Shown here: in pieces, positions 2 to 26,841 of the stretch | Numbering within the stretch: the stretch's first letter is position 1 | Layout: every line of letters begins with the position of its first letter | Position numbers and translations under genes: made by a program | IMG/VR virus record: IMGVR_UViG_3300043446_002748 | Span: 1-26,991 of that record | DNA: 26,991 bases | Origin: a virus | Reading direction: 5' to 3' (one strand) | Notes under the pieces: generated by a model | Databases searched by the model: none | Seen by the model: only the letters and a program-made list of their open reading frames with translations | What the model was told of the DNA's origin: nothing

Positions 2-142
2 AAGAACAAAGCACAAAAGTATCTCACAGAATACCGAGACAAGTATCTTCATCTTCGTAAAGAAGTTCGTAATCTTGTAAAAGAACAAAACCTTACTATC
101 ACTCCTGATTTTGCTAAACTGATTGGACTGAAGGACACTTGA
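2..142 (+). CDS. 3' end of a gene, unknown function (5' end outside window)
   Basis: An open frame runs from the window edge to a TGA at 140-142, giving 46 residues that are lysine- and leucine-rich and probably helical. No domain can be recognised from this tail. Its last codons overlap the dyad of the first dyad-type promoter, so transcription of this gene probably ends at the hairpin at 154-179. Confidence 0.6.
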   Translation, partial: KNKAQKYLTEYRDKYLHLRKEVRNLVKEQNLTITPDFAKLIGLKDT

Positions 143-190
143 AGAACTGGCACAGGGCATCTTCACAGGTGCCCTTTTTCGTTGTATAAT
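134..190 (+). promoter_or_regulatory. Dyad promoter P1 (drives 211 onward)
   Basis: The dyad is GACACT (134-139), N6, ACTGGC (146-151); the -10 TATAAT is at 185-190 after a 33-bp gap. There is no TTGACA-like -35. The gap holds a hairpin with a T-run (154-179). The ATG at 211 would have a leader of about 14 nt. This is the first of 15 equally built sites in the window. Confidence 0.7.
154..179 (+). terminator. Intrinsic terminator nested in P1
   Basis: AGGGCA (154-159) pairs with TGCCCT (170-175), followed by a T-run to 179. It lies right after the stop of the upstream gene and inside the spacer of promoter P1, so it can end one transcript just before the next begins. Confidence 0.7.
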
Positions 191-210
191 AACTTCATAC
201 ACAACAAACC

Positions 211-415
211 GATGACTTATCAAATCACAAAAGAAATCAACATTCATCACCAAGATGATGGGTGGTTCTATCAACTCAATACTGATGAATATGGCACGGT
301 AGAGGTTTTTTACTATGAACTTCGTGATGGTAAAGAAACTCAAGTAGGAAAATCTTTTCACATTCCTAAAGATTGTATTGAAACCTTTATCTCTGTCCTC
401 CAACAACTGAAATGA
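211..415 (+). CDS. Hypothetical protein, 67 aa
   Basis: The ATG at 211 was chosen over an upstream TTG at 182 because the latter would begin inside the -10 box of P1. The protein starts MTYQITKEIN, is acidic and aromatic-rich with a probable beta-rich N-terminal part (DGWFY, VEVFYYEL) and a C-terminal helix. It is the first gene of the P1 unit, and its TGA overlaps the next ATG (ATGA). Function not recognised. Confidence 0.75.
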
Positions 416-579
416 CTGAACAAGAAGAACTCCTCAAAGAATATCAAAAAGAAGTTGAGAAGTGTTGGAAACTTGCTCAAAAACTTGATGCCCTAAATCC
501 TGAACTTGTTGGTAATTTTACTGGAACTCCAAGTGAGAGAATTGAACAACAACTTTATGCTCTTGGTATATTGAAATGA
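412..579 (+). CDS. Hypothetical protein, 55 aa
   Basis: Begins at an ATG that overlaps the stop of the previous gene (ATGA), which suggests translational coupling. The first half is a charged helix (EQEELLKEYQKEVEKCWKLA), the second half is proline- and glycine-containing and ends in a short helix. Not recognised. Confidence 0.65.
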   Translation: MTEQEELLKEYQKEVEKCWKLAQKLDALNPELVGNFTGTPSERIEQQLYALGILK

Positions 580-580
580 A

Positions 581-841
581 ATGAAACTCTTTCAATACGA
601 TAAGAAAGTTTGGGATGATAATGATACTGACTACACTTGGCAGTTTGGTATCTTCAAAAATCGTTCATTACTTTGGGTTAATTATGAATACCCAACTCGT
701 TTAGTTCATAGTAATGGTGGATTACACATTCTACTCTCATTTTTTACTTCTTCTCATCTTCTTGGAGCAGATTTTCAACTTGGTAAGATTGGTTTCAGTT
801 TTAACTTTTTTGCTGAATACTTTGATGGGTGGAAAGAATGA
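581..841 (+). CDS. Hypothetical protein, 86 aa
   Basis: ATG at 581 lies 1 nt after the preceding stop. The protein is unusually rich in aromatic residues (several Trp, Tyr and many Phe), with a hydrophobic middle (LHILLSFF) too short and polar-flanked to call a membrane helix. The pattern is reminiscent of a compact beta protein. The stop overlaps the next ATG. Function unknown. Confidence 0.7.
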   Translation: MKLFQYDKKVWDDNDTDYTWQFGIFKNRSLLWVNYEYPTRLVHSNGGLHILLSFFTSSHLLGADFQLGKIGFSFNFFAEYFDGWKE

Positions 842-1050
842 CTGACGCAGAAAGACTACAAGCATACGATGAGGAACTCTCAAAAGTTATGCCGAAAGAT
901 TATAAAGATTGGTGGGAGAACTCAAAGGACGAATGGCCCTTGGTTGCTCGTTTGATGATTGAAGATTTAAGAGAAGAAAGAGAATGGTGTTATGAGACGA
1001 TTGATATGATGTCTAAGAAAATTGATGAACTCAAAGAGAAACTGAAATGA
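838..1050 (+). CDS. Hypothetical helical protein, 70 aa
   Basis: The ATG at 838 gives a classic ATGA overlap with the previous gene; an in-frame GTG at 829 is less likely. The C-terminal half (EDLREEREWCYETIDMMSKK and onward) has heptad-like spacing and is probably a coiled coil. Acidic N-terminal part with a WW pair. Not recognised. Confidence 0.7.
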   Translation: MTDAERLQAYDEELSKVMPKDYKDWWENSKDEWPLVARLMIEDLREEREWCYETIDMMSKKIDELKEKLK

Positions 1051-1622
1051 CTGAACGACTAAATCATAAACTTGATACAAGCAAACTCAAAACCATCAAA
1101 GATATAAAAAATGTCTTTGATACTATGGGTTTGATTGCTTCTATGGGTGAAGATAATGAACAATATGAAGTCGCAAAGGAATACTTTACTATTCCTTATG
1201 TTTCTCCTGAAATCAAAGGTTCATTTCAATTACCACGCAAGTCATTAGAAGAAATCTCACAAGAGTTTGATGAGAAGATTGATAAACATATTGAGGATGT
1301 AGAATACAAGTTCGCACAACTCAAATACTATCAAGAGCATTGTTACAATCAAAAGTTCAATAAAATTATTGAGAACTTTGAATCCGCAAAAAAATATGGT
1401 AGTTTTCCAGTAAGACTTACAGTAGGCAATTTAAATTGTTCTAACCTTATTGCGACTGATAGTAATATTACTCCCAGTTTTGAGATTAGGTGTGGAACTG
1501 ATAATGCAGGGTATTATACTATTGGTGCTGGTATTGTGAAATATTATATGAATAAGAAACCAAACTGGTTGGTGAGGAATTGTGCTAAAATCTTCTTTGA
1601 CTTTACTTGGAAAGACAAATGA
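1047..1622 (+). CDS. Hypothetical protein, 191 aa
   Basis: Starts at an ATGA overlap. The N-terminal two thirds is charged and helical (lys/glu-rich segment around residues 65-125); the C-terminal third is beta-like (FPVRLTVGNLN, SFEIRCG, YYTIGAGIV) and ends in WKDK. It is one of the two longest proteins of the first unit. I recognise no catalytic motif. Confidence 0.75.
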   Translation: MTERLNHKLDTSKLKTIKDIKNVFDTMGLIASMGEDNEQYEVAKEYFTIPYVSPEIKGSFQLPRKSLEEISQEFDEKIDKHIEDVEYKFAQLKYYQEHCYNQKFNKIIENFESAKKYGSFPVRLTVGNLNCSNLIATDSNITPSFEIRCGTDNAGYYTIGAGIVKYYMNKKPNWLVRNCAKIFFDFTWKDK

Positions 1623-1804
1623 CTGAACGAGTTAAATTCGTAACGATCACCCGTACAATTGATCCGAAGACACGCATTCATTATCTTGATGCTGTTGATG
1701 AGAATGGACAACACTGGATTGCACAAATGGAAACTGGTGTAGAACGATGGATTACATACAAAGAAGTTTGGAAAAAAGACCCACAACAACCTTACGATCT
1801 ATGA
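1619..1804 (+). CDS. Hypothetical protein, 61 aa
   Basis: The ATG at 1619 overlaps the previous TGA and is preferred over an upstream GTG at 1607. Small, mostly beta-strand-like (VKFVTITRTI, IHYLDAVDENGQHWIAQME), two Trp near the C-terminus. Not recognised. Confidence 0.65.
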   Translation: MTERVKFVTITRTIDPKTRIHYLDAVDENGQHWIAQMETGVERWITYKEVWKKDPQQPYDL

Positions 1805-4366: not shown

Positions 4367-4422
4367 ACCACTTTAGAAACTGGACCACTCCTCTTGCAGG
4401 AGTGGTCCTAATCCAGTATAAT
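4367..4422 (+). promoter_or_regulatory. Dyad promoter P2 (drives the helicase/methyltransferase/nuclease unit)
   Basis: ACCACT (4367-4372), N6, ACTGGA (4379-4384); a 32-bp gap filled by an 11-bp stem hairpin; -10 TATAAT at 4417-4422; ATG at 4443. No further dyad promoter is seen until 13975, so this may feed about 9.5 kb. Confidence 0.65.
4382..4408 (+). terminator. Strong hairpin nested in P2
   Basis: GGACCACTCCT (4382-4392) and AGGAGTGGTCC (4398-4408) form a perfect 11-bp stem with a 5-nt loop. There is no T-run behind it (TAATCC), so it may act as a terminator, an RNA-processing signal, or simply insulate the promoter. Confidence 0.65.
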
Positions 4423-4442: not shown

Positions 4443-5837
4443 ATGAATCTCTTTCCTCATCAAATTCAGATGCTTGATGCTATTCAAGCAAATGACAAGG
4501 GTATTGTGAATAGTCCTACTGGGAGCGGAAAGACAATCACTTTTATCACCGATTGTCGTAGGTTTTTGTATCCTGGAAAAGTCATAGTTGTTGTTGCTCC
4601 ACAATTGATGCTTTCCGAACAGATTTTCAACGAGTTTGATAAGCATCTGTCAGACATTGATTTTTATTATCGTCAGGTTTCCTCTGAACCTAAAGTATTT
4701 CAACGTAATCGTAAAAATCTTAAATTTCGTATCACTCCTCCAAAGTTTGCCACAACAGTTGTAGAAGAAATTCGAGAGACTTATCGCATTGCACAGAAAT
4801 TGAAGAAACCTTTGATTTTGTTCAGTACCTACGATAGTTTGAATAGAATCGTTTCTTCAATGATTCCGATTGATGCTGTATATTATGATGAAGCACATAA
4901 TGCTACAACATCAAATGTTTTTAATTCGGTAAAATTTATGAGCAATCATTCTGTTCATAATTATTTCTTTACTGCAACTCCACGATATTCCGAATCTCGC
5001 AGTGCTGATGGTCCTGGAATGGACAATGAATCTGTTTTCGGAAAGCAGATTGTAAATATTCCATTTAGTGAACTTGTTCGTCAAGGAATTATTGTGAATC
5101 CTTTAATTCACCTGATGACAAGTGATGCTGATACAAATCATATGGATGAAGTTTCAGTATCGTTCAAAACAATTAAAGACCTTGTAAGGCACTATGAAGA
5201 AAAGCATTCGGAAACTTCTGCCCATAAGATTTTGCTTTGTATGCAAGGTACAAAAGTAATTCAAGATTTGTTGAATTCTGATTTGCAAACTTGGGCAGAA
5301 TCCAAAGGATACAAGGTGCTTTCAATTGATTCTGTAAATAATGGTTATGTCGATGGTAAAAGAAAAATCAATAAGTCTAATTTTATTAAAACTCTTAATC
5401 AACTTGGTGATGACCCCAATCAAAAAATGATTGTTCTTCACTATGCAATGTTGGGTGAGGGTATTGATGTTAAGGCATTCACTGGAGTTGTATTTTTCCG
5501 TAACACTCTTTCTTCTATCTTTGCAACACAATCTATTGGACGTGTAATTCGTTCCGCCCCAGGTAAGAAGTATGGTATTGTAACTATTGTTCAACACGAA
5601 AATAATACCTTGGAAAGTTATGAACTGATTCGTCAAATTGTTATTCAACTTTATCAGCAAGGTGTTCCAGTATCCGAAATCTTCACCGAAGTTCATGGGC
5701 GTGGAAAAGAAAATGAAATTATTGAAGATCTTGAGGATGATTTGAAGCGTCGAATTTTGGATTATCAAATTAATTTTGAACATACAAATGCTCTAAAAGA
5801 ACTTCTTGAAGCAGACATTGAAGAATTTGCTTTTTGA
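4443..5837 (+). CDS. SF2 DEAH-type helicase / DNA translocase, 464 aa
   Basis: Contains a Q-motif-like start (FPHQIQMLDAI), Walker A SPTGSGKT (24-31), motif Ia APQLMLSEQ (52-60), motif II DEAH (149-152), motif III TATP (177-180), motif V GEGID (338-342) and motif VI QSIGRVIR (363-370). This is the SF2 arrangement of restriction-enzyme translocases, UvsW-like and DEAD/DEAH helicases. All motifs for ATP hydrolysis look intact. It has no nuclease domain of its own. It is followed after 21 nt by a DNA methyltransferase and then a nuclease gene, so it is a good candidate for the motor of a multi-subunit restriction-like complex. A stand-alone recombination or remodelling helicase is the alternative. 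Confidence 0.9.
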   Translation: MNLFPHQIQMLDAIQANDKGIVNSPTGSGKTITFITDCRRFLYPGKVIVVVAPQLMLSEQIFNEFDKHLSDIDFYYRQVSSEPKVFQRNRKNLKFRITPPKFATTVVEEIRETYRIAQKLKKPLILFSTYDSLNRIVSSMIPIDAVYYDEAHNATTSNVFNSVKFMSNHSVHNYFFTATPRYSESRSADGPGMDNESVFGKQIVNIPFSELVRQGIIVNPLIHLMTSDADTNHMDEVSVSFKTIKDLVRHYEEKHSETSAHKILLCMQGTKVIQDLLNSDLQTWAESKGYKVLSIDSVNNGYVDGKRKINKSNFIKTLNQLGDDPNQKMIVLHYAMLGEGIDVKAFTGVVFFRNTLSSIFATQSIGRVIRSAPGKKYGIVTIVQHENNTLESYELIRQIVIQLYQQGVPVSEIFTEVHGRGKENEIIEDLEDDLKRRILDYQINFEHTNALKELLEADIEEFAF

Positions 5838-5858: not shown

Positions 5859-7115
5859 ATGATTACTCAACTTCCCACAATTGATTCTGTATTTGATAGG
5901 GCACGTGCTAAATTTCGTGCAGAATTTTCCAAGGGTATCAAACCTGTGGATAGTCGTCAACCAATTCCTGATGATCTTGCACGTGAAATGATTCAACAAC
6001 TTGTTGATTATGAAGTTCCTAAAGATGCACGGATTGGTGTTGTAGATGCTTTTCTAATTCTTTCCACCTATCTTAAAGAATCGGGATTCACTAATTTGAT
6101 TCTTCTTGAAAATACTCATCAGAACTTGACCGAATCTCAGCAAAAGTATTATAATAATGTAAAAAATTTGTGTGAAAAATCGGGAATTAAATATTACATT
6201 CCTCCGATGAACAACTACAATAGGTGTGATATGAAGTTTGATGTAATTATTGGAAATCCCCCCTATCAGAGTGATAACGGTGGCGGTTCTTGCCGTGGTT
6301 CAACCACAAACCCTTTGTGGTGGGAAATTACTAATGTTTCGGTTAAACTTTTGAAAGAAAATGGAATTCTGAGTTTTGTAACTCCAACTAATTTTCTTAA
6401 TGGTGGTGACCATTTTACTACTTTTACTTTGGGAAATGACCGCAAGTATGATTTAAAGTTTGTTGATTTCTCTGCTGACGATTATTTTAAAGTTGGTGTT
6501 CCTATTTGTCGTTGGGTTTTGAGGAATTCTAAAACAAAAAACAATCAGATTGAAGTCTCTGATGGAAGAACAATTAGTGCAGATAGTGCATTTAAGGTCA
6601 CCAAAGATTGTATTTTGGATGGTATTCTGAATACTCTATTTTCATATGATGGTGAAAAGTTAAAATTTAATACCAGTGATAGGTATGATTTTAAACCAGT
6701 CGAAAGTTATTTGAAAAAGCAAAATCTTCCTATTGAATGGGCAAAAGAACTTAAAGAAGTGAGAGATGACATTTATTGTTATCCTGTTAACAACAATGGC
6801 AAAATTAAATATTCACGTATAAAGTGGAAAAAAACTGGTGTTTGGAGGGTATTTTATCCTCAATTGCAAGTTCCTACTAAAATTACTGTCGATAAAGAAG
6901 CAGAAGCAACTGCAGCAACTTTCACAATGGTCTTTGATACTGAAGAAGAAGCAAATCTTACTAAAAGTTACTTGGAGTCTCCCATTTATCAATGGATTAT
7001 TGATAAAACACGTGTAAGTGGACGTGTTACAAATATTATTTCTAAATTTCCTAACGCTCCTATTGAATCGGTTCTTTCAGAATCTCAAATCGCTTACGTT
7101 CAATCTCAACTTTGA
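5859..7115 (+). CDS. Adenine-specific DNA methyltransferase, NPPY part plus C-terminal target-recognition-like region, 418 aa
   Basis: The motif DVIIGNPPYQ (NPPY at residues 133-136) is motif IV of gamma-class N6-adenine methyltransferases such as Eco57I and the methylase part of type ISP enzymes. The loop after it (GGGSCRGSTTNPLWWEI) and the following segment fit the same class. The C-terminal half, ending in SGRVTNIISKFPN, resembles a target-recognition/C-terminal region. A normal AdoMet motif I (D-P-x-x-G-x-G-x-F) is not visible in the first 130 residues; only a weak GVVDAFLIL strand is present. That missing motif is found in the separate gene at 7677. The gene lies between helicase and nuclease genes and overlaps the following unit by an in-frame TGATAATG junction. 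Confidence 0.85.
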   Translation: MITQLPTIDSVFDRARAKFRAEFSKGIKPVDSRQPIPDDLAREMIQQLVDYEVPKDARIGVVDAFLILSTYLKESGFTNLILLENTHQNLTESQQKYYNNVKNLCEKSGIKYYIPPMNNYNRCDMKFDVIIGNPPYQSDNGGGSCRGSTTNPLWWEITNVSVKLLKENGILSFVTPTNFLNGGDHFTTFTLGNDRKYDLKFVDFSADDYFKVGVPICRWVLRNSKTKNNQIEVSDGRTISADSAFKVTKDCILDGILNTLFSYDGEKLKFNTSDRYDFKPVESYLKKQNLPIEWAKELKEVRDDIYCYPVNNNGKIKYSRIKWKKTGVWRVFYPQLQVPTKITVDKEAEATAATFTMVFDTEEEANLTKSYLESPIYQWIIDKTRVSGRVTNIISKFPNAPIESVLSESQIAYVQSQL

Positions 7116-9116: not shown

Positions 9117-9292
9117 TGGACTACACTGAAGAATTTCCCTTTGATCAGTTTCCTTGGAAGTTGGTACATAAAGACGGAAAAGAAACTCGCAAGTGCTATT
9201 TTCAAACTGAAGAACATATGAAGAAGCACATTACACGATACAATCTTAAAAAGAAAGATTATACAATTGGATACAAATACGAAAATGACTAA
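9116..9292 (+). CDS. Hypothetical protein, 58 aa
   Basis: TGATG junction. Acidic, Phe-rich N-terminus (MDYTEEFPFDQFPW), then a basic, histidine-containing C-terminal half (EEHMKKHITRYNLKKKDYTI). Overlaps the sugar-nucleotide dehydratase gene by 8 nt. Not recognised. Confidence 0.6.
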   Translation: MDYTEEFPFDQFPWKLVHKDGKETRKCYFQTEEHMKKHITRYNLKKKDYTIGYKYEND

Positions 9293-10313
9293 ACGTGCTC
9301 TTATTACTGGTGGTGCAGGTTTTATTGCCCATCATTTGATTGGACAAATTCTTTCTAATACTGATTGGGAAATTATTACACTTGATCGTCTTGATTATAG
9401 TGGTAATCTTAATCGTCTTCACGACTTAATGCTTTCCTTTGATCCTGAGGTTCGCAAACGTGTTAAAGTTGTTCATCACGATTTAAAAGCAGAACTTAAC
9501 CCTCTTGTTCGCAGTGAAATTGGTTCCGTTGATTATATTCTCCATCTTGCTGCTGGGTCTCATGTTGACCGCAGTATCGAGTATCCTATGGAGTTTGTTC
9601 TTGATAATGTAGTTGGAACTTGTAACATTCTTGAATTTGCACGGGGACAAAAAGATAACCTAGAAAGATTCATTTATTTCAGCACAGATGAAGTATTTGG
9701 TCCTGCACCAAATGGTATCAAGTATAAAGAGAATGATCGCTACAATTCAACTAATCCATACAGTGCTACAAAAGCAGGTGGTGAAGAACTGGCAGTAGCA
9801 TATGAGAACACTTATGGTCTTCCTGTTTATGTAACACATACGATGAATGTGTTTGGCGAGCGTCAGCACCCCGAGAAATACATTCCAATGTGTATTCGTA
9901 GGATTCGTGATGGTGAAACTGTAAAGATTCATAGTGATTCTACAAGAACTATTCCTGGTTCACGTCACTACATTCACGCCGAAGACGTTGCATCTGCTGT
10001 TATTTTCTTGCTGAATTATGAGGGTAAGTTCGAACCTGCTTGGGGTAACGCTAAATGCCCTAAGTTTAACATTGTTGGTTCGGAAGAACTCAACAACTTG
10101 GAACTGGCACAAATCATTGCCAAATCCCAAGGAAGAGAATTGAGTTATGAACTCGTAGATTTTCACTCTTCACGCCCTGGTCACGACTTGCGTTATGCTC
10201 TGGATGGTGATAAAATGAAACAACTGGGATGGGTTCCCCAGAAGTCAGTTCGTGAGCGTATTTCTGAAGTGACTCAATGGACTCTTGAAAACGAACGCTG
10301 GATTACTCTATGA
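9285..10313 (+). CDS. NAD-dependent dTDP-glucose 4,6-dehydratase-like extended SDR, 342 aa
   Basis: Rossmann motif GGAGFIA (9-15), the STDEVFG segment (133-139) whose Thr-Asp-Glu triad marks NDP-sugar 4,6-dehydratases, and the catalytic YSATK (Tyr159, Lys163). Further family segments are LAAGSHVDRS, NVFGERQHPEKYIP and RPGHDLRYALD. Length is normal for RmlB-type enzymes, which turn dTDP-glucose into dTDP-4-keto-6-deoxyglucose in the cytoplasm. The ATG at 9285 places the Rossmann strand at the N-terminus; an upstream TTG at 9267 is less likely. The rest of an L-rhamnose pathway is not present, so the product may feed a host pathway, for example cell-surface sugar change. Confidence 0.88.
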   Translation: MTKRALITGGAGFIAHHLIGQILSNTDWEIITLDRLDYSGNLNRLHDLMLSFDPEVRKRVKVVHHDLKAELNPLVRSEIGSVDYILHLAAGSHVDRSIEYPMEFVLDNVVGTCNILEFARGQKDNLERFIYFSTDEVFGPAPNGIKYKENDRYNSTNPYSATKAGGEELAVAYENTYGLPVYVTHTMNVFGERQHPEKYIPMCIRRIRDGETVKIHSDSTRTIPGSRHYIHAEDVASAVIFLLNYEGKFEPAWGNAKCPKFNIVGSEELNNLELAQIIAKSQGRELSYELVDFHSSRPGHDLRYALDGDKMKQLGWVPQKSVRERISEVTQWTLENERWITL

Positions 10314-11193: not shown

Positions 11194-11347
11194 CGATACT
11201 CTTAAGATATCACAGAACGAGGACGGGTCTTTCACAATGGACTGGGATCCACAAGATCCAAATTGGAAATGGTTGAATGAGTTGACTTCCAAAGAGATTC
11301 AGGTTATTATGGAACAAGCAATCAAGGATTATCTTAATGACCTCTGA
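11177..11347 (+). CDS. Hypothetical protein, 56 aa
   Basis: Starts within the 3' end of the previous gene and overlaps the next by 11 nt. Contains NEDGSFTMDWDPQDPNWKWL and a C-terminal helix (SKEIQVIMEQAIKDYLNDL). The N-E-D-G-S-F-T-hydrophobic-W-D-x-x-D-P-x-W motif recurs in small cyanophage proteins. Confidence 0.65.
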   Translation: MEKNNNDTLKISQNEDGSFTMDWDPQDPNWKWLNELTSKEIQVIMEQAIKDYLNDL

Positions 11348-14031: not shown

Positions 14032-14057
14032 ATGTGGGTAATCAACAAACGCCCCCA

Positions 14058-14492
14058 ATGGCAACTCGCGGACGCATCGGCATTGAACTCTCTGATGGTT
14101 CTGTGCTCTCTGCTTATCATCACTGGGATTCCTATCCCGAATGGTTGGGTCGCATTCTGAAGACGCACTACAATAGCAAAGAACTTGCTGCCGAACTGAT
14201 TGATGGTGGCGATATGAGCACTTGTTGGACTAATGAGCGTTGGACTGGAGACCGTTGGGGTTCTTATCCCAATAAGGTTGAGGAATATGGTCCCCAATAC
14301 TACTCCCAACGTGGTGAGAATTGCCCTCCTCGCCTTGATGCTGATCTGTGTGAGTATCTTCTGCCCGATAATAGCGAAGAGTTCGCATATGTCTTCCGCA
14401 GTGGTGAATGGGTTTGCTACAACATGCATCGCTTTGATGACAGCAAACTGCCTGAAGTTGTAGAGATTCCCTCTGGTGCCCTTGCTGCTTGA
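14058..14492 (+). CDS. Conserved phage protein (MATRxxI family), 144 aa
   Basis: Begins MATRGRIGIELSDGSVLSAY with HHWDSYPEWLG, the recognisable start of a protein widespread in tailed phages and sometimes bacteria, with no known function. ATG at 14058 chosen because it matches that N-terminus and sits about 20 nt after the expected start of the P3 transcript. The stop lies 2 nt before the next ATG. Confidence 0.8.
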   Translation: MATRGRIGIELSDGSVLSAYHHWDSYPEWLGRILKTHYNSKELAAELIDGGDMSTCWTNERWTGDRWGSYPNKVEEYGPQYYSQRGENCPPRLDADLCEYLLPDNSEEFAYVFRSGEWVCYNMHRFDDSKLPEVVEIPSGALAA

Positions 14493-15127: not shown

Positions 15128-15794
15128 TGTAAAACTTTATAACGACGATTGTATGAATGTGCTCCCTTCTCTTGCGGATGGGAGCATTTCACTTACTCTT
15201 ACAGATATACCATACGACGAGGTAAATCGTAAGAGTGGTGGATTGAGAAATCTTGATAAAAGTCATGCGGATATTATTACTTTCCCACTTGATAATTTTA
15301 TTGATGAGGTTGTTCGTGTAACTTCTGGGAGCATTTATATCTTTTGTGGATCAGTTCAGGTCTCACATATTCGCAACCGATTGATAGAACACGGTTTATC
15401 TGTGAGGCACTGTATATGGGAGAAAACTAACCCTTCTCCTATGAATGGACAACATATCTGGCTTTCAAGTATAGAGAACTGCGTGTTTGCCAAGAAGTCT
15501 GGTGCCATATTTAATGAGCATTGTAAGTCTGCTGTGTGGCGTTGTGCAACAGAAAGATATAAAGATCATCCTACACCAAAACCTGTTAAATTAATGGCAA
15601 GATTGATTGAAGCAAGTTCAAATGTTGGTGATACTGTGTTAGATCCTTGTATGGGAAGTGGTGCGATTGGTGTTGCTGCAAAACAATGTGGTAGAAAATT
15701 TATTGGTGTTGAAATGAACTTTGACTATTTCAAATTGACAGAGGAAAGAATTAACAGTCAAACTGGCAGTATTTTATCTTTCATGGACAGTTAG
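15120..15794 (+). CDS. Beta-class DNA methyltransferase (N6-adenine or N4-cytosine), 224 aa
   Basis: Motif IV LTDIPYDE (TDIPY 28-32) comes before motif I LDPCMGSGAIGVAA (174-187), with PTPKP (151-155) between them; this permuted order marks beta-class DNA methyltransferases (DpnA/YhdJ-like). The first residue of the usual DPPY is kept and the second is Ile. It methylates adenine N6 or cytosine N4 with AdoMet. Length is normal for the phage form. The dyad of P4 begins within its last codons. Confidence 0.88.
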   Translation: MSDVKLYNDDCMNVLPSLADGSISLTLTDIPYDEVNRKSGGLRNLDKSHADIITFPLDNFIDEVVRVTSGSIYIFCGSVQVSHIRNRLIEHGLSVRHCIWEKTNPSPMNGQHIWLSSIENCVFAKKSGAIFNEHCKSAVWRCATERYKDHPTPKPVKLMARLIEASSNVGDTVLDPCMGSGAIGVAAKQCGRKFIGVEMNFDYFKLTEERINSQTGSILSFMDS

Positions 15795-15840
15795 AAGACT
15801 GGCACAAGACCCGTCAGCAAGGTTGGTTTTCTGCTATAAT
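15786..15840 (+). promoter_or_regulatory. Dyad promoter P4
   Basis: GACAGT (15786-15791), N6, ACTGGC (15798-15803); 31-bp gap; -10 TATAAT at 15835-15840; ATG at 15864. The gap has only a weak hairpin (AGACC...GGTTT with wobble pairs), unlike most sister sites. The dyad overlaps the stop of the methyltransferase gene. Confidence 0.7.
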
Positions 15841-15863: not shown

Positions 15864-15989
15864 ATGGACCTGTCTGAATTGATTGACGAACTGCGGGAAA
15901 TCGCAATGTACGAGTCTGATCCCCAAGACTGGATGGGATATTTGAGCGATGATGAACCCTGGGTGCCAGATTCAGAACTGGCATACTGA
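15864..15989 (+). CDS. Small acidic protein, 41 aa
   Basis: Single short gene between P4 and P5: MDLSELIDELREIAMYESDP, then DWMGYLSDDEPWVPDSELAY. Strongly acidic. Its last codons (GATTCAGAACTGGCA) double as the dyad of P5. Not recognised. Confidence 0.6.
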   Translation: MDLSELIDELREIAMYESDPQDWMGYLSDDEPWVPDSELAY

Positions 15990-16021
15990 CCTCTCCACAG
16001 GCACCTGTGTGCCCCTATAAT
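15965..16021 (+). promoter_or_regulatory. Dyad promoter P5
   Basis: GCCAGA (15965-15970), N6, ACTGGC (15977-15982), GCCAG and CTGGC being exact complements; 33-bp gap with hairpin GGCAC (16000-16004)/GTGCC (16009-16013); -10 TATAAT 16016-16021; ATG 16043. The dyad lies wholly inside the preceding gene. Confidence 0.7.
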
Positions 16022-16042
16022 ACCTTCATACGCAACCAAGCA

Positions 16043-16486
16043 ATGACCACCACCTTCGCTGACTACGCCGCTGCTGCTGAGGCACGGAAAGACATCGCTG
16101 CTGCTGTTCTGGGGCACACCTATGCTCTCTGTGAGGCACTGCGCCAGAACTACATTGATTACAGCATCAAGATGCACAAGCACTCTATGGATAGTAATCT
16201 TGATAACCTTGAGTATCACCAGAAGCAAATTGATAAACTGAAGCAGGGCACTTGCGATTATGATTTCTATCCTGAAACTGGTCGTAAGTATCACAAAATC
16301 ATTATGAATGCGAACGGTTCTCGCTCTGTCCACGCTTTTGTGGATAAGAAAACTGGTGAGGTTTATAAGTCTGCAAGTTGGAAAGCACCTGCGAAAGGTG
16401 TTCGCTATGATCTTCGCATCATTGAGCAGCGTGAATGGTTGCTTCAGAATGCTGACTGGGCAGGTGGTTACTTGTACGCTCGCTGA
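16043..16486 (+). CDS. Conserved phage protein, 147 aa
   Basis: ATG at 16043 follows P5 with a leader of about 15 nt. N-terminal helix rich in Ala (MTTTFADYAAAAEARKDI), C-terminal module with SVHAFVDKKTGEVYKSASW and RYDLRI. That C-terminal segment (HAFVD-x-x-TGEVYK-x-ASW) is one I remember from many tailed phages; function is unknown. Codon use is more G+C-rich than in genes before 14 kb. Confidence 0.75.
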   Translation: MTTTFADYAAAAEARKDIAAAVLGHTYALCEALRQNYIDYSIKMHKHSMDSNLDNLEYHQKQIDKLKQGTCDYDFYPETGRKYHKIIMNANGSRSVHAFVDKKTGEVYKSASWKAPAKGVRYDLRIIEQREWLLQNADWAGGYLYAR

Positions 16487-16542
16487 ACCACTTCAACAAC
16501 TGGCACAAGGGGTCGCACAGACCCCTCTGATTGCCCTATAAT
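16487..16542 (+). promoter_or_regulatory. Dyad promoter P6
   Basis: ACCACT (16487-16492), N6, ACTGGC (16499-16504); 32-bp gap with hairpin; -10 TATAAT 16537-16542; ATG at 16549. The ATG lies where the transcript should start, so the mRNA may be leaderless. Confidence 0.7.
16509..16525 (+). terminator. Hairpin nested in P6
   Basis: GGGGTC (16509-16514) and GACCCC (16520-16525), 6-bp stem and 5-nt loop, followed by TCTGATTG. Lies between the stop of the previous gene and the -10 of P6. Confidence 0.55.
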
Positions 16543-17418: not shown

Positions 17419-17997
17419 ATGGTTAAGAAACTGGACAGCAGCAAACTGATGTATTCTGAAGGAAATAATGATGAATGTTACACACCAAACTACGGTGTAG
17501 CACCCATTCTCAAATATATTCCTAAAGATGCAAAGGTATGGTGCCCATTTGATACCAAAGAGAGTGAATTTGTCAAGCAGATTGGAGCACAAAATTTAGT
17601 CATTTCAACACACATTTCAACGGGTCAAGACTTTCTAACATATGATCCAAACTTTGAATGGGATGTGATTGTATCTAATCCACCATTTACAAACAAACGA
17701 AAGTTCTTTGAGCGAGCACTATCATTTGGCAAACCATTTGCTCTGATTATGACCAATACTTGGTTAAATGATTCTGCACCAAAGCAACTGTTTAAGGAAA
17801 AAGATCTGCAGTTGCTGATGTTTGATAAGCGGATGAAGTTTCATAGTCCTGATGGTCGTCCAAATGATAAGATCACGTTTAGCAGTAGTTATTACTGTTG
17901 GAACTTTCTACCAAAACAAATCATAATGGAAGAACTCGCTGTGCCACCTTCCAAACTGGCACAGAGAACTAGCAGCGAGGCAGTTCTTCCCCTATAA
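17419..17997 (+). CDS. Phage DNA N6-adenine methyltransferase (NPPF type), 192 aa
   Basis: Contains ECYTPNYGV (19-27), VWCPFD, a degenerate AdoMet region, and motif IV VIVSNPPF (NPPF 87-90) followed by TNKRKFFERALSFGKPFALI. This is the short phage adenine methyltransferase type that lacks a separate recognition domain. The last 20 codons run through the dyad and hairpin of P7, and the stop TAA (17995-17997) lies inside the -10 box TATAAT. Self-protection of phage DNA is the usual role. Confidence 0.8.
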   Translation: MVKKLDSSKLMYSEGNNDECYTPNYGVAPILKYIPKDAKVWCPFDTKESEFVKQIGAQNLVISTHISTGQDFLTYDPNFEWDVIVSNPPFTNKRKFFERALSFGKPFALIMTNTWLNDSAPKQLFKEKDLQLLMFDKRMKFHSPDGRPNDKITFSSSYYCWNFLPKQIIMEELAVPPSKLAQRTSSEAVLPL

Positions 17998-17998
17998 T
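17943..17998 (+). promoter_or_regulatory. Dyad promoter P7
   Basis: GCCACC (17943-17948), N6, ACTGGC (17955-17960); 32-bp gap with hairpin AGAACT (17965-17970)/AGTTCT (17982-17987); -10 TATAAT 17993-17998; GGTAATC downstream; ATG 18023. The whole promoter is inside the methyltransferase gene. Confidence 0.7.
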
Positions 17999-19340: not shown

Positions 19341-19544
19341 ATGATTGAAGAGACTGTACAACTGAATGTTCATGAAATTGGTGTCATTCTATCTGCATTG
19401 CAGCAGTTAGATCTCCGTGAGGAAAATCAAATTGCACGGGAATATGGAAGTGTGCCAGCACTGTATAACAAACTCTATTCGGTCTGGGAGCGAATGGACA
19501 GATCAGGAACTGTCCTACGCAACGACGTGGTGCCGTCCTTCTGA
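19341..19544 (+). CDS. Hypothetical protein, 67 aa
   Basis: MIEETVQLNVHEIGVILSAL, then helix LREENQIAREYGSVPALYNK and a C-terminal part that encodes the P8 dyad (codons 53-58). Ends directly before the -10 of P8. Not recognised. Confidence 0.65.
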   Translation: MIEETVQLNVHEIGVILSALQQLDLREENQIAREYGSVPALYNKLYSVWERMDRSGTVLRNDVVPSF

Positions 19545-19552
19545 CCTATAAT
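19497..19552 (+). promoter_or_regulatory. Dyad promoter P8
   Basis: GACAGA (19497-19502), N6, ACTGTC (19509-19514), a near-perfect GACAG/CTGTC palindrome; 32-bp gap with little hairpin potential; -10 TATAAT 19547-19552; GGTAATC downstream; ATG 19577. Entirely inside the preceding gene up to the stop. Confidence 0.7.
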
Positions 19553-19576: not shown

Positions 19577-19837
19577 ATGCAGACCCCTCAACTGACTTCC
19601 AAGGACGGTAATATGGTGGTTGACTTCTACCCCGTCAAGACCCCCTATGGTGATATTTCGCAACAGTGGTTTCTCCGTGCAGTGACCTTTGCTCCTCACG
19701 GGCAAGTGTCGAAGAAGTTTCTGAACCGTGTGGAGATGCTGCTGGACATTCGTGAGCGTCTGGCATATGGTTACACTGAAACCCGTGATAACTCTAACCT
19801 GCCCCAACTGGGCAATCCTTTCTATGGTGCTTGCTGA
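19577..19837 (+). CDS. Hypothetical protein, 86 aa
   Basis: First gene of the P8 unit, leader about 18 nt. Beta-rich N-terminal part (NMVVDFYPVKTPYGDISQQW), then a helix (SKKFLNRVEMLLDIRERLAY) and GNPFYGAC. Not recognised. Confidence 0.65.
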   Translation: MQTPQLTSKDGNMVVDFYPVKTPYGDISQQWFLRAVTFAPHGQVSKKFLNRVEMLLDIRERLAYGYTETRDNSNLPQLGNPFYGAC

Positions 19838-23554: not shown

Positions 23555-23677
23555 GACAGTTTGGAAATTGGCACATATTCTCAATAAGACCTTCGTTATT
23601 GAGAATGAGACCTAGTATGTGCCAATTGGAGAACTGGCACAGTAGGGGTTGATATCTGCCACGTGGTGGTTTATGTT
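23555..23677 (+). promoter_or_regulatory. Double dyad promoter P9 with long inverted repeat
   Basis: Two dyads: GACAGT-N6-ATTGGC (23555-23572) and GCCAAT-N6-ACTGGC (23621-23638). The second is followed after 33 bp by TATGTT (23672-23677), the -10. The arms AATTGGCACATA (23566-23577) and TATGTGCCAATT (23616-23627) pair and enclose the second ATTCTCAATAA hairpin. The first dyad has no -10 at the expected distance. Confidence 0.6.
23577..23606. repeat. Perfect inverted repeat ATTCTCAATAA-N8-TTATTGAGAAT, copy 2
   Basis: Arms 23577-23587 and 23596-23606, loop GACCTTCG. Same arms as at 22857-22886. Here it is nested inside a longer stem, so the RNA would form one extended hairpin. Confidence 0.7.
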
Positions 23678-23699: not shown

Positions 23700-23903
23700 A
23701 TGATTTTTCTTACTTCCACCAATCACGGTTGCGTTTATACCTTATCGCAAGAAGACGGCGACGAATTGTATTATGCTCCGATCTACGCAAATGGTAATGT
23801 TAACCTCGAAGAATTCGCTCCAGTTGATATGAGCGAAATCGATATGGACGATATGGAAGTGTATGATATTATGCGTCGTTTGAAAGTTATGAATGAGGTG
23901 TGA
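23700..23903 (+). CDS. Hypothetical acidic protein, 67 aa
   Basis: ATG at 23700, leader about 16 nt from P9. MIFLTSTNHGCVYTLSQEDG, DELYYAPIYANGNVNLEEFA, VDMSEIDMDDMEVYDIMRRL. The ELYYAP-x-x-x-x-G-x-x-x-LEEF pattern is familiar from several cyanophage proteins. Its stop TGA is part of the TGACAGT of P10. Confidence 0.7.
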   Translation: MIFLTSTNHGCVYTLSQEDGDELYYAPIYANGNVNLEEFAPVDMSEIDMDDMEVYDIMRRLKVMNEV

Positions 23904-23958
23904 CAGTCAGAGAACTGGCACAGGGGTGGTTGCGTTCGTGCTTCCACCCTGTTATGTT
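23902..23958 (+). promoter_or_regulatory. Dyad promoter P10
   Basis: GACAGT (23902-23907), N6, ACTGGC (23914-23919); 33-bp gap with hairpin GGGTGG (23924-23929)/CCACCC (23944-23949); -10 TATGTT 23953-23958; ATG 23983. Shares TATGTTTGATTCGT(A/T)CCTGAGA with P9. Confidence 0.7.
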
Positions 23959-23982: not shown

Positions 23983-24276
23983 ATGTTCACCACCACTGTA
24001 TACTTCGGTGCAAACATTCCTGACGCAGGTGAGGTGAATGCACCAATGTTTTCTTCGTTTCTGAAAGATACCATTCAACAATATTTGAATGCTTTCACTC
24101 TCACTGAAGGTTTTGGTTGTTGGAATGGTGAATATGAAAAGGTTCGTATTCTCACTGTTATCTCTGAGGAAATGTTGGACGAAGTGTTGGAAATTGCAGA
24201 GGAGTATAAGAAACAGTTTCGTCAGGAAAGTGTCCTGGTGAATGTAGTTGAAAACCACGCCTTCTGTTTGGTGTGA
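23983..24276 (+). CDS. Conserved-looking phage protein, 97 aa
   Basis: Alpha/beta protein: MFTTTVYFGANIPDAGEVNA, LKDTIQQYLNAFTLTEGFGC, YEKVRILTVISEEMLDEVLE, ESVLVNVVENHAFCLV. The T-x-x-x-G-F-G-x-W-x-G-x-x-E segment is one I recall from cyanophages; function unknown. Its stop TGA belongs to the TGACAGT of P11. Confidence 0.7.
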   Translation: MFTTTVYFGANIPDAGEVNAPMFSSFLKDTIQQYLNAFTLTEGFGCWNGEYEKVRILTVISEEMLDEVLEIAEEYKKQFRQESVLVNVVENHAFCLV

Positions 24277-24331
24277 CAGTCTGAGAAGTGTCACACGGGG
24301 GGTTGCAATGCCCCCCAGACCCTGATACATT
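24275..24331 (+). promoter_or_regulatory. Dyad promoter P11
   Basis: GACAGT (24275-24280), N6, AGTGTC (24287-24292); 33-bp gap with GGGGGG (24297-24302)/CCCCCC (24311-24316) hairpin; -10 TACATT 24326-24331; ATG 24357. Confidence 0.65.
24297..24316 (+). terminator. G6/C6 hairpin nested in P11
   Basis: GGGGGG-TTGCAATG-CCCCCC, 6-bp all-GC stem with an 8-nt loop, no T-run after it. Very stable for its size. Confidence 0.5.
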
Positions 24332-24356
24332 ACATTCGTTCACTGAGAGACACACC

Positions 24357-24679: not shown

Positions 24680-24683
24680 AACC

Positions 24684-24866
24684 ATGACCAACACTTTCGA
24701 TCGTGAAGCACTGGTTGAAGCATACATCGACCGTTTGCTTGACAACATGAGCACCAAAGATCTGATGCGTATTGTAGGCGATCAGATGGAAGAAAATCTC
24801 ACCAGTTATACTGATGAGGAACTGATTTCAGAGGTTGAATCATACTATCCCGACCTGCTGGAGTGA
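24684..24866 (+). CDS. Conserved-looking cyanophage protein, 60 aa
   Basis: MTNTFDREALVEAYIDRLLD, MSTKDLMRIVGDQMEENLTS, YTDEELISEVESYYPDLLE. The pattern LVE-x-YID-R, L...ENL-x-x-YT-x-EEL and YxPELL is one I know from many cyanophages; function unknown. Its stop belongs to the TGACAGT of P12. Confidence 0.75.
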   Translation: MTNTFDREALVEAYIDRLLDNMSTKDLMRIVGDQMEENLTSYTDEELISEVESYYPDLLE

Positions 24867-24921
24867 CAGTTGAACAAGTGGCACAAGGGGGGTTGCGACT
24901 CCCCTTTTTTCGTGCAATACT
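24865..24921 (+). promoter_or_regulatory. Dyad promoter P12
   Basis: GACAGT (24865-24870), N6, AGTGGC (24877-24882); 33-bp gap with a terminator-type hairpin; -10 AATACT 24916-24921; ATG 24928. The ATG is 6 nt after the -10, so the message may be leaderless. Confidence 0.6.
24886..24910 (+). terminator. Intrinsic terminator nested in P12
   Basis: AGGGG (24886-24890), loop, CCCCT (24901-24905) and a six-T run to 24910: a classical intrinsic terminator within the promoter spacer. Confidence 0.7.
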
Positions 24922-24927
24922 AACAGT

Positions 24928-25824
24928 ATGAAAAACACACACCTCGAACACCCCGAAGATACCATCCTCACGGGTGATCTTTCCTGTCTTGATTGGTTCA
25001 CTGCAAAGGGTAACCTTTCTGTGAAGATTGATGGTGCCCCTGCAATCGTGTGGGGGATTGATCCTGCCTGCGGTGAGTTCTTTGTAGGAACCAAGGCAGT
25101 CTTTAACAAGAAAAAGATTCGTATCGCCCATAATCATGAGGAGATTGATCTCTTCTATCAGGGTGAAGTTGCACGTATTCTTCACGCTTGCTTCGATTAT
25201 CTGCCTCGCCTGGAGACAATTTATCAGGGTGATTTCATCGGGTTCGGTGGATCTGATGAGTACACTCCCAACACGATCACGTATAAGTTCGGTGAGGTAG
25301 TTTCCCAGCAAATTATCATCGCTCCGCACACTTGCTATTATGCTGAGAGCGATCTTCGTGATGCTCAGGCATTCCCTGATCGTAGCATCTGGACTGATAC
25401 TGACACGGTGAAGTTCGTGCAACCGAATGCATACATTCTGTACAATCAGGAGTCCTTCGCTGATGTTCAGGAAGTGGTAGATTTTGCTCGTCAAATGTCT
25501 ACTGCCTGTGAGTTTGTTTCTGATAAGGAAGCGGCAAAGATCAAACAACAGATCAACGCCTGCATTCGTGCTGGTGAAGAAGTGAATCCTGATGACTTTG
25601 AATGTGATGCTAACCTGCTGCGTCTGTGGGCATTGGTGAAGTCGATCAAAGATGATTGTTTGTTCCTCTGCCGCAATGATGGTCCTGCTGCTTATCTCTA
25701 CGGCAACCGAATTGATGCCGAAGGTTATGTGATGACCAATGAGTTTGGTATGTTCAAACTGGTGAATCGTGAGGTCTTTTCTAACGCTAACTTCAACAAC
25801 AGTCGGTTTAACGTGGCAGCGTAG
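24928..25824 (+). CDS. Covalent nucleotidyltransferase-like protein (DNA/RNA ligase adenylation fold), 298 aa
   Basis: Motif I VKIDGAPA (Lys33 in KIDG 33-36) carries the lysine that takes the nucleotide in ATP ligases and capping enzymes. Other matches are FFVGTKAVFNKKK (51-63), YQGDFIGFG (motif III-like) and EGYVMTNEFGMFKLV (265-279; Lys277 as motif V lysine). The lengths and order fit a small ligase adenylation domain, with an insert (residues 130-240) of unknown role. In cyanophages I recall uncharacterised proteins of this kind. Nicked-end sealing, nucleic-acid end modification or protein AMPylation would all be possible. A second ligase domain (OB fold) is not visible. Confidence 0.7.
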   Translation: MKNTHLEHPEDTILTGDLSCLDWFTAKGNLSVKIDGAPAIVWGIDPACGEFFVGTKAVFNKKKIRIAHNHEEIDLFYQGEVARILHACFDYLPRLETIYQGDFIGFGGSDEYTPNTITYKFGEVVSQQIIIAPHTCYYAESDLRDAQAFPDRSIWTDTDTVKFVQPNAYILYNQESFADVQEVVDFARQMSTACEFVSDKEAAKIKQQINACIRAGEEVNPDDFECDANLLRLWALVKSIKDDCLFLCRNDGPAAYLYGNRIDAEGYVMTNEFGMFKLVNREVFSNANFNNSRFNVAA

Positions 25825-25857
25825 GAGTTAGGTATACTCAGGATCGGCTGCCCCTGT

Positions 25858-25913
25858 GCCAGTTGCGGGACTGTCCACCAACTGCCCCGATGCCCCCGAA
25901 TCGGTGCAATACT
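25858..25913 (+). promoter_or_regulatory. Dyad promoter P13 (dyad in flipped orientation)
   Basis: GCCAGT (25858-25863), N6, ACTGTC (25870-25875): the asymmetric bases are exchanged relative to other sites, as if the box were reversed. 32-bp gap with hairpin CCGAT (25887-25891)/ATCGG (25900-25904); -10 AATACT 25908-25913; ATG 25938. Confidence 0.6.
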
Positions 25914-25937
25914 AAGGCATACCAAACGAAACGACGA

Positions 25938-26117: not shown

Positions 26118-26130
26118 CGCCCCCCTTTTT
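26105..26130 (+). terminator. Intrinsic terminator
   Basis: GGGG (26105-26108), bulged T, GGCG (26110-26113), loop GTGA, CGCC (26118-26121), CCCC (26122-26125), five T. The stop codon TGA (26115-26117) forms most of the loop. Confidence 0.8.
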
Positions 26131-26254
26131 ATGCTTCTCTTTTTAATTCAAGGCTGCTCCCGTGACGACCTTTTTCGTCCTCAGGGCTACCCCGCCCCTC
26201 CTTCGCTTGTGACCTTAGTATAGAGCCTCAGCACCCCCTGACCAGCCACCCTAT
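26131..26254. other. Gene-free GC-rich stretch
   Basis: Between the terminator and P14 I find no gene. It contains a TTTTTAATTC tract and a CCTCAGGGCTACC stretch with a weak stem (GACGACCTTTTTCGTC, 26164-26179), but no clear -35/-10 pair. Confidence 0.5.
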
Positions 26255-26310
26255 GCCACTTTCTAAACTGGCAACCACACCCTAGACCTGCCCCGCTGAC
26301 CCCTTATACT
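26255..26310 (+). promoter_or_regulatory. Dyad promoter P14
   Basis: GCCACT (26255-26260), N6, ACTGGC (26267-26272); 32-bp gap without a strong hairpin; -10 TATACT 26305-26310; ATG 26333. The 36 bp from 26292 to 26327 recur exactly in P15. Confidence 0.7.
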
Positions 26311-26327
26311 GATCTCAGTTCAAACGA
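26292..26327 (+). repeat. 36-bp promoter direct repeat, copy 1
   Basis: CCCGCTGACCCCTTATACTG and onward, identical over 36 bp to 26823-26858. It covers the -10, the expected start site and the leader, but not the dyad. Confidence 0.85.
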
Positions 26328-26332
26328 ACCCA

Positions 26333-26479
26333 ATGGCACTGATCCGCTACGAAGTCCGCTACCAGGTCCCCTACAATGCCTGTGAGTGGCGGTCGCAATG
26401 GTTCGCCACCTATGATGAGGCGATGCGGATGGTAGACTTCTACCGTTCCTGCGGTTCCCCTGCTCACCTTGCTGCCTGA
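26333..26479 (+). CDS. Hypothetical basic protein, 48 aa
   Basis: MALIRYEVRYQVPYNACEWR, SQWFATYDEAMRMVDFYRSC, GSPAHLAA. Beta strand then helix with YDEA-x-x-MVDFYR, typical of small phage proteins. G+C-rich codons (cgc, gcc, ggt). Not recognised. Confidence 0.65.
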   Translation: MALIRYEVRYQVPYNACEWRSQWFATYDEAMRMVDFYRSCGSPAHLAA

Positions 26480-26483
26480 AACG

Positions 26484-26666
26484 ATGACTGAAACTCAACG
26501 CTTCGAAATGATCAACGACCTGATTCATTCAGTCAAGGTCGCAATGTACCATCATCAGCAGAGTGGCAACATCGCCGCCAGGAATGCTCTGTTTGAAGAG
26601 TGGCAGGAATGGATCGTTGACGGACCCCGCGAAGTTGAATTGATGGACTCCATCCTGCCCGCATGA
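26484..26666 (+). CDS. Hypothetical helical protein, 60 aa
   Basis: MTETQRFEMINDLIHSVKVA, MYHHQQSGNIAARNALFEEW, QEWIVDGPREVELMDSILPA. ATG at 26484 is 4 nt after the previous stop; an in-frame start at 26469 would overlap it. Not recognised. Confidence 0.65.
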   Translation: MTETQRFEMINDLIHSVKVAMYHHQQSGNIAARNALFEEWQEWIVDGPREVELMDSILPA

Positions 26667-26830
26667 TCCGCTCCCTGACCCGTTCCCGCTCCGCTGACTT
26701 CCACCGTGCTACCATGCTTCGCCTGACCGTTGGTGCCCTGCTGCTCTGGCTACTATGGGAACCGATCCGCCCCGTCCGCACTGTGACAGCTCAGGCACTG
26801 TACACTGCAGGCGACCTGATCGCCCGCTGA
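26663..26830 (+). CDS. Small membrane protein, 55 aa
   Basis: ATGA overlap. Basic N-terminus (MIRSLTRSRSADFHRATMLR), membrane helix LTVGALLLWLLWEPI (21-35), then RPVRTVTAQALYTAGDLIAR. The codons for TVTAQALYT carry the P15 dyad and its stop lies inside the 36-bp promoter repeat. Confidence 0.6.
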   Translation: MIRSLTRSRSADFHRATMLRLTVGALLLWLLWEPIRPVRTVTAQALYTAGDLIAR

Positions 26831-26841
26831 CCCCTTATACT
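26785..26841 (+). promoter_or_regulatory. Dyad promoter P15
   Basis: GACAGC (26785-26790), N6, ACTGTA (26797-26802); 33-bp gap with GGCG...CGCC stem; -10 TATACT 26836-26841; ATG 26864. The dyad is degenerate at its last base but spacing holds. Located inside the preceding gene. Confidence 0.6.

Follow-up and report, generated by a model that had tools for sequence, protein, structure and literature searches.

A palindromic operator at fixed distance from sigma-70-type -10 boxes in T4-like cyanophages, and the host regulator PlmA as its candidate binding protein

Background

Few viruses of sunlit water are as abundant as the T4-like cyanophages. The present study concerns a recurrent promoter element in DNA that, judging from sequence matches, is probably a fragment of such a phage, namely the 26,991-base stretch formed by positions 1 to 26,991 of the IMG/VR virus record IMGVR_UViG_3300043446_002748 (hereafter the window). 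An initial annotation of this stretch had recognized fifteen copies of an 18-bp dyad, each followed at a nearly constant distance by a -10 box and a gene start, and had proposed a dimeric activator, either phage-encoded or of the host, as the protein that binds them. We consider it likely that these sites are sigma-70 (SigA)-type phage promoters, probably early ones, which recruit the host regulator PlmA, in Prochlorococcus the GntR-family protein PMM1637, via a 24-bp operator at about -53.

Several described systems bear comparison with these promoters. In the middle promoters of T4 an activator site, the MotA box, replaces the -35 element, which is a likeness to the phage promoters considered here; the MotA box lies at about -30 and is not the palindrome of the dyad. 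A scan of T4 with the matrix introduced below gives 0 matches, bearing out the initial distinction between dyad and MotA box. Doron et al. 2016 (ISME J 10:1437) reportedly described a new regulatory element at the early genes of Syn9 and its conservation among T4-like cyanophages. The phage group is the same and includes Syn9, which has 9 non-redundant sites here, and each of 12 isolates carries 2-29 such sites; the promoter class of the window is probably this element, and the window a further member. The initial remark that no description was known is therefore probably outdated, also because a host motif, CGRE1, has been published (PMC6778093). T4-like cyanophages are described in PMC5780444 as lacking T4-like middle promoters and motA and/or asiA. 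NtcA sites differ from the dyad, as had been held at the outset, since our logo is without the GTA-N8-TAC core of the NtcA consensus (PMC3037559). Sites for host PhoB and NtcA reported in cyanophage promoters (PMC10976474, PMC3037559) offer the parallel of phage promoters using host regulators, but these systems differ from the dyad promoters in both sites and proteins; a putative Pho box is reported at 7/14 up-regulated S-PM2d genes (PMC10976474), as against the 2-29 dyad sites per isolate. Finally, promoter-stem-loop cassettes, or PeSLs, are known from T4-like phages (Arbiol 2010 and Comeau 2014, as cited in PMC4503421) and likewise have a stem-loop joined to an early promoter in variable regions, but in the promoters studied here the activator dyad comes before the stem-loop, and the stem-loop lies within the -35 spacer.

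On the host side, PMC6778093 describes the work on CGRE1 and PMM1637 as that of Lambrecht et al. 2018. There, PMM1637, a GntR regulator common to all cyanobacteria, is reported to bind yfr2 promoters containing CGRE1 and to mediate Yfr2 induction, and CGRE1 is said to be found nowhere else in Prochlorococcus MED4. According to PMC7344720, PlmA is found in all cyanobacteria and only there, regulates Yfr2, has PII-PipX complexes as interaction partners and plays a part in photosystem balance. The word cyanophage is absent from PMC6778093, and among the top-ranked papers of a search in freely available literature none has both CGRE1 and cyanophage.

Results and discussion

Dyads in the window

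The first 25,000 bases of the window gave matches to 9 annotated phage records, covering a few percent of the record lengths; all nine are Synechococcus phages, among them the freshwater phages S-SRM01, DSL-LC03 and DSL-LC02. The consensus dyad G(A/C)CA(G/C)T-N6-ACTG(G/T)C was scored over its 12 positions on the + strand, with 60 order-2 Markov sequences as the control. Fourteen dyads match at 11-12 positions (0.22 expected) and six at exactly 10 (2.98 expected). Thirteen of the 15 sites originally named belong to the stronger class, those at 4367 and 26785 match 10/12, and the fourteenth strong dyad is one at 23555. A matrix trained on 366 IMG/VR sites, all from contigs other than the window, recovers on the + strand 16 matches, which are the 15 named sites and 23555; its 13 matches on the - strand are all + strand palindromes read in reverse, and it yields 0 matches on the reversed window and 0 on two order-3 Markov sequences. 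A chance origin is ruled out by the shuffles, the reversed sequence and the other phages. All 15 dyad/-10 pairs are present where the initial annotation had placed them, and with Markov and reversed controls nearly empty the dyads stand far above chance. The sites are listed below, with the distance of -35-like hexamers counted from the -10 box and the score given by the 366-site matrix.

134-190, + strand: dyad 134-151 (12/12, gap 33); spacer hairpin GGGCA/TGCCC with a T run; -10 TATAAT 185-190; score 33.3
4367-4422, + strand: dyad 4367-4384 (10/12); hairpin CCACTCCT/AGGAGTGG; TTGCAG at 17 bp; -10 TATAAT 4417-4422; score 22.9; behind it a DEAD-box helicase gene (4443-5837), with a homologue behind a site in 5 phages including the window
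13975-14031, + strand: dyad 13975-13992; 9-bp hairpin; -10 TATAAT 14026-14031; score 36.1; behind it an open reading frame (ORF) at 14034-14492, with a homologue behind a site in 4 phages including the window
15786-15840, + strand: dyad 15786-15803; -10 TATAAT 15835-15840 (gap 31); score 29.4
15965-16021, + strand: dyad 15965-15982; -10 TATAAT 16016-16021; score 32.7; behind it the ORF 16007-16486 for an MTTTFADYAA-type protein, with a homologue in 6 phages including the window
16487-16542, + strand: dyad 16487-16504; hairpin GGGGTC/GACCCC; -10 TATAAT 16537-16542; score 34.9
17943-17998, + strand: dyad 17943-17960; -10 TATAAT 17993-17998; score 37.2, the highest in the window
19497-19552, + strand: dyad 19497-19514; -10 TATAAT 19547-19552; score 25.3; behind it ORF 19577-19837, with a homologue in P-SSM2
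23555-23572, no strand assigned: the sixteenth dyad, absent from the initial annotation (11/12); best -10 match 3/6, none good at 31-34 bp downstream; hairpin TTCTCAATAA/TTATTGAGAA behind it; score 17.6 on the + and 26.2 on the - strand
23621-23677, + strand: dyad 23621-23638; TTGATA at 17 bp; -10 TATGTT 23672-23677; score 27.3
23902-23958, + strand: dyad 23902-23919; hairpin GGGTGG/CCACCC; TTGCGT at 17 bp; -10 TATGTT 23953-23958; score 28.1 (35.4 in reverse, where a TATCAT falls within a gene); behind it ORF 23983-24276, with a homologue in P-HM2
24275-24331, + strand: dyad 24275-24292; hairpin GGGGGG/CCCCCC; TTGCAA at 17 bp; -10 TACATT 24326-24331; score 28.7
24865-24921, + strand: dyad 24865-24882; hairpin with a T run; TTGCGA at 17 bp; -10 AATACT 24916-24921; score 27.1; behind it a DUF6267 (PF19782) gene (24928-25824), with a homologue in 7 phages including the window
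25858-25913, + strand: dyad 25858-25875; -10 AATACT 25908-25913; score 23.8
26255-26310, + strand: dyad 26255-26272; -10 TATACT 26305-26310; score 32.4 on the + and 33.5 on the - strand
26785-26841, + strand: dyad 26785-26802 (10/12); -10 TATACT 26836-26841; score 15.0, the lowest; behind it ORF 26864-26989, open at the window end

Promoter architecture

A logo of 441 distinct sites from 126 loci reads TGTG(A/C)CA(C/G)TTNNNNAA(C/G)TG(G/T)CACA, followed downstream of the 18-bp core by 32 or 33 bases, TATAAT, six bases and an (A/G)TA-N2-CAA leader. The 18-bp dyad of the initial annotation is real, but the conserved element is 24 bp long, with TGT added in front and ACA behind. The inferred start, taken from logos of 219 and of 111 sites, is an A or G seven bases past the -10 box. 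A TATAAT box with an A/G start 7 bp on is the pattern of a sigma-70 promoter; as the logo sites were preselected for a 5/6 match to the -10, the A/G start alone is independent support for it. Given this start, the dyad centre falls at about -53.5.

Spacing was counted over the window and 12 isolates for gaps of 10-60, with no choosing among -10 candidates; in the logo-stage and IMG/VR-stage counts -10 ties had been resolved toward gap 32, and we quote the unselected count instead. Strong -10 boxes lie past the dyad at gaps of 31, 32 and 33 in 11, 52 and 30 cases, respectively, and at any other gap in at most 6, so that the near-constant gap of 31-33 is sustained, with its peak at 32-33. The epithet "-35-less" holds in part: the -35 is weak or absent, but not always absent, since 5 of the 15 window sites (4367, 23621, 23902, 24275 and 24865) have TTG at exactly 17 bp from the -10. 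Four of these five have a -10 weaker than TATAAT, and site 134 has TTCACA in the -35 place, 17 bp from its -10. Over the window and the isolates, TTG at 16-17 bp is found in 13/79 gap-32 sites and 12/41 gap-33 sites, most sites being without it. The initial postulate of a binding site for a dimer, set at a constant distance ahead of a -10 box, here of sigma-70-like type, is well supported, and this 24-bp operator centred at about -53 would compensate for the weak or missing -35.

Palindromic GntR sites are often repressor operators, and some dyads, such as that at 23555, are without a good -10, both of which would suit an operator for repression or a titration site. We nevertheless hold such a role to be very improbable, because the fixed place upstream of the -35 region and the combination of a strong -10 with a weak -35 fit activation, as does the PMM1637-mediated induction of Yfr2 reported in PMC6778093.

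The spacer is often folded: its minimum free energy (MFE) is <= -9 in 30% of sites (n=137), compared to 3.6% of shuffles and 1.5% of random stretches. Such hairpins probably terminate transcription of the gene upstream, so that each unit would combine a terminator with a promoter. The same enrichment could be read as the mark of an RNA or recombination element, such as a 3' end, a processing site or a shuffling cassette, to which the -10 link would be secondary, and PeSLs are said to mediate shuffling in T4-like phages (cited in PMC4503421). We hold this reading to be very improbable, given the constant gap to the -10 beside a variable or missing hairpin, the occurrence of the same dyad before Cyano-1/Yfr2 (see below), and the small number of PeSL-like features found in S-PM2 (PMC4503421).

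Distribution among phages

An exact scan of IMG/VR for the core GACAGTTNNNNAACTGGCACA returned at least 119 stretches, and among its occurrences in the listed stretches 68/127 have at least 5/6 -10 letters at a gap of 30-35. S-SRM01 has 24 + strand dyads at window quality (11-12/12), 19 of them between 32 and 90 kb in a small-gene region, and a perfect TATAAT 32-33 bp past 12 of the 24. Applied to 12 isolated T4-like cyanophages and the window, the 366-site matrix finds 179 non-redundant sites (palindrome readings merged), 163 in the isolates and 16 in the window, whereas the 13 reversed sequences gave 0 matches and the 26 Markov sequences a single one. The motif thus recurs in related cyanophages over nearly empty controls. 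The sites per genome are:

S-SRM01: 29
S-CRM01: 25
S-PM2: 22
P-SSM2: 20
window: 16
P-SSM4: 15
P-HM2: 13
Syn9: 9
Bellamy: 9
DSL-LC02: 9
DSL-LC03: 5
S-TIM5: 5
S-SM2: 2

S-RIM2 has 7 + strand and 3 - strand matches, and sites were found in 13/13 T4-like cyanophage isolates scanned. The matrix finds 0 sites in each of T4, P-SSP7, Syn5, PSS2 and Ma-LMM01. In S-TIM5 the sites at 163777, 165333 and 170891 have the proximal half TGGCCCA or TGGCCCT instead of TGGCACA, which could reflect a diverged regulator or a relaxed contact.

The element in front of Cyano-1/Yfr2

A lax 12-base pattern proved too noisy for cyanobacterial genomes, matching 157/386 of them with many control matches as well. A strict 22-bp dyad is present in 35/373 cyanobacterial genomes, with 0 control matches. 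Seven of these loci were scanned with Rfam, and in 4 the family RF01701 (Cyano-1), which we take to be Yfr2, lies directly downstream, above the gathering score; the four have a -10 at a gap of 32-34.

We also made the comparison in the opposite direction, starting from the sRNA. RF01701 is present in 136/292 cyanobacterial genomes searched, and the 30 loci tested were the best-scoring ones, one per genome, of the 136 genomes with a match. The phage matrix reaches at least 0 bits, with the element starting at -66 to -56, in 19/30 loci, and at least 5 bits in 16/30. As the Prochlorococcus-like loci are near-identical, 17 dissimilar representatives were taken, of which 10 reach 0 bits and 7 reach 5 bits; the corresponding control means are 0.03 for windows elsewhere and 0.00 for palindrome-preserving permuted matrices. 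Six of the 30 loci score best elsewhere (L345, L350, L359, L361, L363 and L364). Here "Prochlorococcus-like" (1.6-1.7 Mb, 27-28% G+C) and "Synechococcus-like" are labels drawn from genome size and G+C. Ten Prochlorococcus-like loci carry TGTGACAGTTAAGATAGAGG, and their best 24-mer is centred at -52.5 in nine and -51.5 in one, counted from the Rfam 5' end. In Synechococcus-like loci the matches are weaker, the best of them mostly being centred at about -46.5 to -50.5 from the same end. The phage promoters share with the yfr2 promoters the operator sequence, with half-sites partly degenerate in the Prochlorococcus-like loci, and have a closely similar operator-to-start distance (about -53.5 in phages). 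In relation to CGRE1, the likeness is that many Cyano-1/Yfr2 promoters have an element of the phage type, similarly placed; on the other hand, CGRE1 was described for the host, and Prochlorococcus-like genomes conserve other half-sites than the phages do.

Candidate binding proteins

One GntR match was found in each of 4/4 cyanobacterial genomes searched. The four proteins have 327-329 aa, and their helix-turn-helix stretches are identical at 36-47 of 48 positions, with TGLHRNTISKVY unchanged in all four; two of them, scanned with NCBIfam, gave only GntR/MocR-type matches, below curated cut-offs. The initial alternative of a phage-encoded or host activator now leans to the host side, because in many cyanobacterial genomes this element stands at a closely similar distance before Yfr2, a reported PlmA target, and no GntR protein was found in 18 phage records. 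On the search of these 18 records a GntR protein of the phage was dropped as the binder, and PlmA is the best candidate for the phage dyad.

That a different phage-encoded or virion-injected protein binds the dyad and activates the host polymerase strikes us as unlikely. The core is common in viral contigs and at about chance level in bacterial and archaeal genomes; sites occur in every T4-like cyanophage scanned, so that a conserved phage protein is possible, and 115 query proteins of S-SRM01 and Syn9 have relatives in at least 11/12 isolates. Against such a protein stand the element before Cyano-1/Yfr2 in cyanobacterial genomes, at nearly the same distance, the lack of GntR in the 18 records, and the failure of the one annotated DNA-binding candidate tried, the protein encoded at 11337-12023 of the window. 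S-SRM01 and DSL-LC03 have related proteins annotated as AbrB/MazE/SpoVT, and DSL-LC02 has a weaker match, but at E 1e-5 this AbrB/SpoVT-type protein matches no more than 4 phage records, from 3 phages, and none from S-PM2, Syn9 or P-SSM2, which carry sites. Two further routes to a binder were given up: the comparison of core genes, in which the 115 query proteins allowed no decision, and the podovirus MarR regulator of P-SSP7 (PMC9692554), a phage with 0 sites.

A host regulator other than PlmA, also acting at yfr2, would also account for the co-location computed here, the protein assignment being taken from papers. We think this improbable in view of the reported binding of PMM1637 to CGRE1-containing yfr2 promoters and the restriction of CGRE1 to these promoters in MED4 (PMC6778093).

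A number of observations weigh against PlmA as the binder and against the yfr2 connection, and are gathered here. 1) A scan of 84,980 bacterial and archaeal genomes finds the exact core in 28 stretches, with about 30 expected by letter count. Five of the 28 have 5/6 -10 letters at a gap of 32-33 (L139, L154, L155, L159 and L165). Of these, L154 and L159 represent a single coding sequence, while L155 and L165 are copies of another sequence, each from a different metagenome bin; among the 28, only L155 and L165 have a phage-like hairpin and leader too. 2) The dyad with TATAAT gives 19 sites in 386 cyanobacterial genomes against 13 control sites, without clear enrichment, and a broad host regulon was dropped on this ground. 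3) The strict-dyad genomes are all of at least 2.9 Mb, and none is picocyanobacteria-sized, that is, of the size of the likely hosts; in small genomes of that size the yfr2 element is degenerate. 4) Cyano-1 was not found at 3 of the 7 strict-dyad loci scanned, and 7/17 representatives stay under 0 bits with the phage matrix. 5) In Prochlorococcus-like loci the distal half-site TGTGACAGTT alone is intact, unlike phage sites, where the proximal half AACTGGCACA is the most conserved, and several Synechococcus-like loci have extra everted half-sites at about -33 and -24. 6) The window was not among the 18 phage records searched for GntR proteins, the candidacy of PlmA is drawn from shared sequence and place, and the identity of CGRE1 with the phage dyad from position.

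Two side observations concern cyanobacterial loci. Everted half-sites (e.g. AACTGGCACAGTGACAGTT) at about -33 to -14 lie over the core promoter in the Synechococcus-like Yfr2 loci L347, L351, L352 and L354, beside or replacing the -50 site. In thirteen aligned loci from larger cyanobacterial genomes (L322-L334; dyad at 1501 in most) the same dyad and a -10 are followed by a conserved region of some 200 nt that resembles a transcript, laid out as AAGGAGTGATACCACTTCA ... AGTTATACGGGG ... and its own terminator. The 11 loci scanned match no Rfam family at the gathering score, giving only weak sub-threshold matches, and the region may represent an sRNA, either not yet described or strongly diverged, that is controlled by the same regulator.

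Genes behind the sites and further features of the window

Of 202 directional site calls, both palindrome readings counted, we followed the 150 that have an ORF of 55 aa or longer with its start close to the -10. Grouping was by BLAST, for which "homologous" is a safer word than "orthologous". The five largest groups of homologues span 7, 7, 6, 5 and 5 phages; a protein of 707-744 aa, annotated as "peptidase" in S-SRM01, is behind a site in 7 phages, and one annotated as a MoxR family ATPase in S-SRM01 in 5. The regulon first surmised from the window is likewise well supported, with homologous genes behind a site in up to 7 different phages.

At the dyad 26255-26272 a TATACT lies 32 bp off on both strands, so that it may drive two divergent promoters. 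The stretch CCTTATACTGATCTCAGTTCAAACGA, from -10 to leader, occurs twice in the window, at 26303-26328 and 26834-26859. An S-PM2d stretch printed in the Pho-box table of PMC10976474, CCTATACT GAT CTCAGTTC, is very similar to the -10 region of sites 26255 and 26785. Elsewhere in the window are a GDP-mannose-dehydratase-like sugar gene (9267-10313; PF16363) with 82% DNA identity to S-SRM01, an Eco57I-type DNA methylase-type gene (5859-7115) and an N6/N4 DNA methylase-type gene (15120-15794); an Rfam search of the window gave zero matches.

Conclusions

The reading that we favour is one in which PlmA, as a dimer on the dyad, would sit just upstream of the polymerase and help to recruit the host RNA polymerase. 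The usual position of a class II activator is about one helical turn closer. The phages would in this way copy the architecture of the host yfr2 sRNA promoter, and each unit would join a terminator, the spacer hairpin, to a promoter. PlmA binding of the phage dyad, activation and the early timing of the genes are all points that we infer. More speculatively, T4-like cyanophages may perhaps have captured the yfr2 promoter design and spread copies of it across their variable gene region, in which case one regulator, PlmA, might open much of the incoming genome. In that tentative scenario infection would draw PlmA off yfr2, because phage sites outnumber host sites, and would unsettle the host nitrogen/light response; the link between phage and PlmA may not yet be in print.

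For the start of transcription in T4-like cyanophages without MotA/AsiA, a named host candidate, a 24-bp site and a fixed geometry offer a testable model. The matrix offers a quick marker of dyad promoters in uncultured cyanophage contigs. If PlmA is the binder, phage take-off would be tied to a regulator described in PMC7344720 in connection with PII-PipX and photosystem balance, and infection could be linked to the nitrogen and light state of the host.

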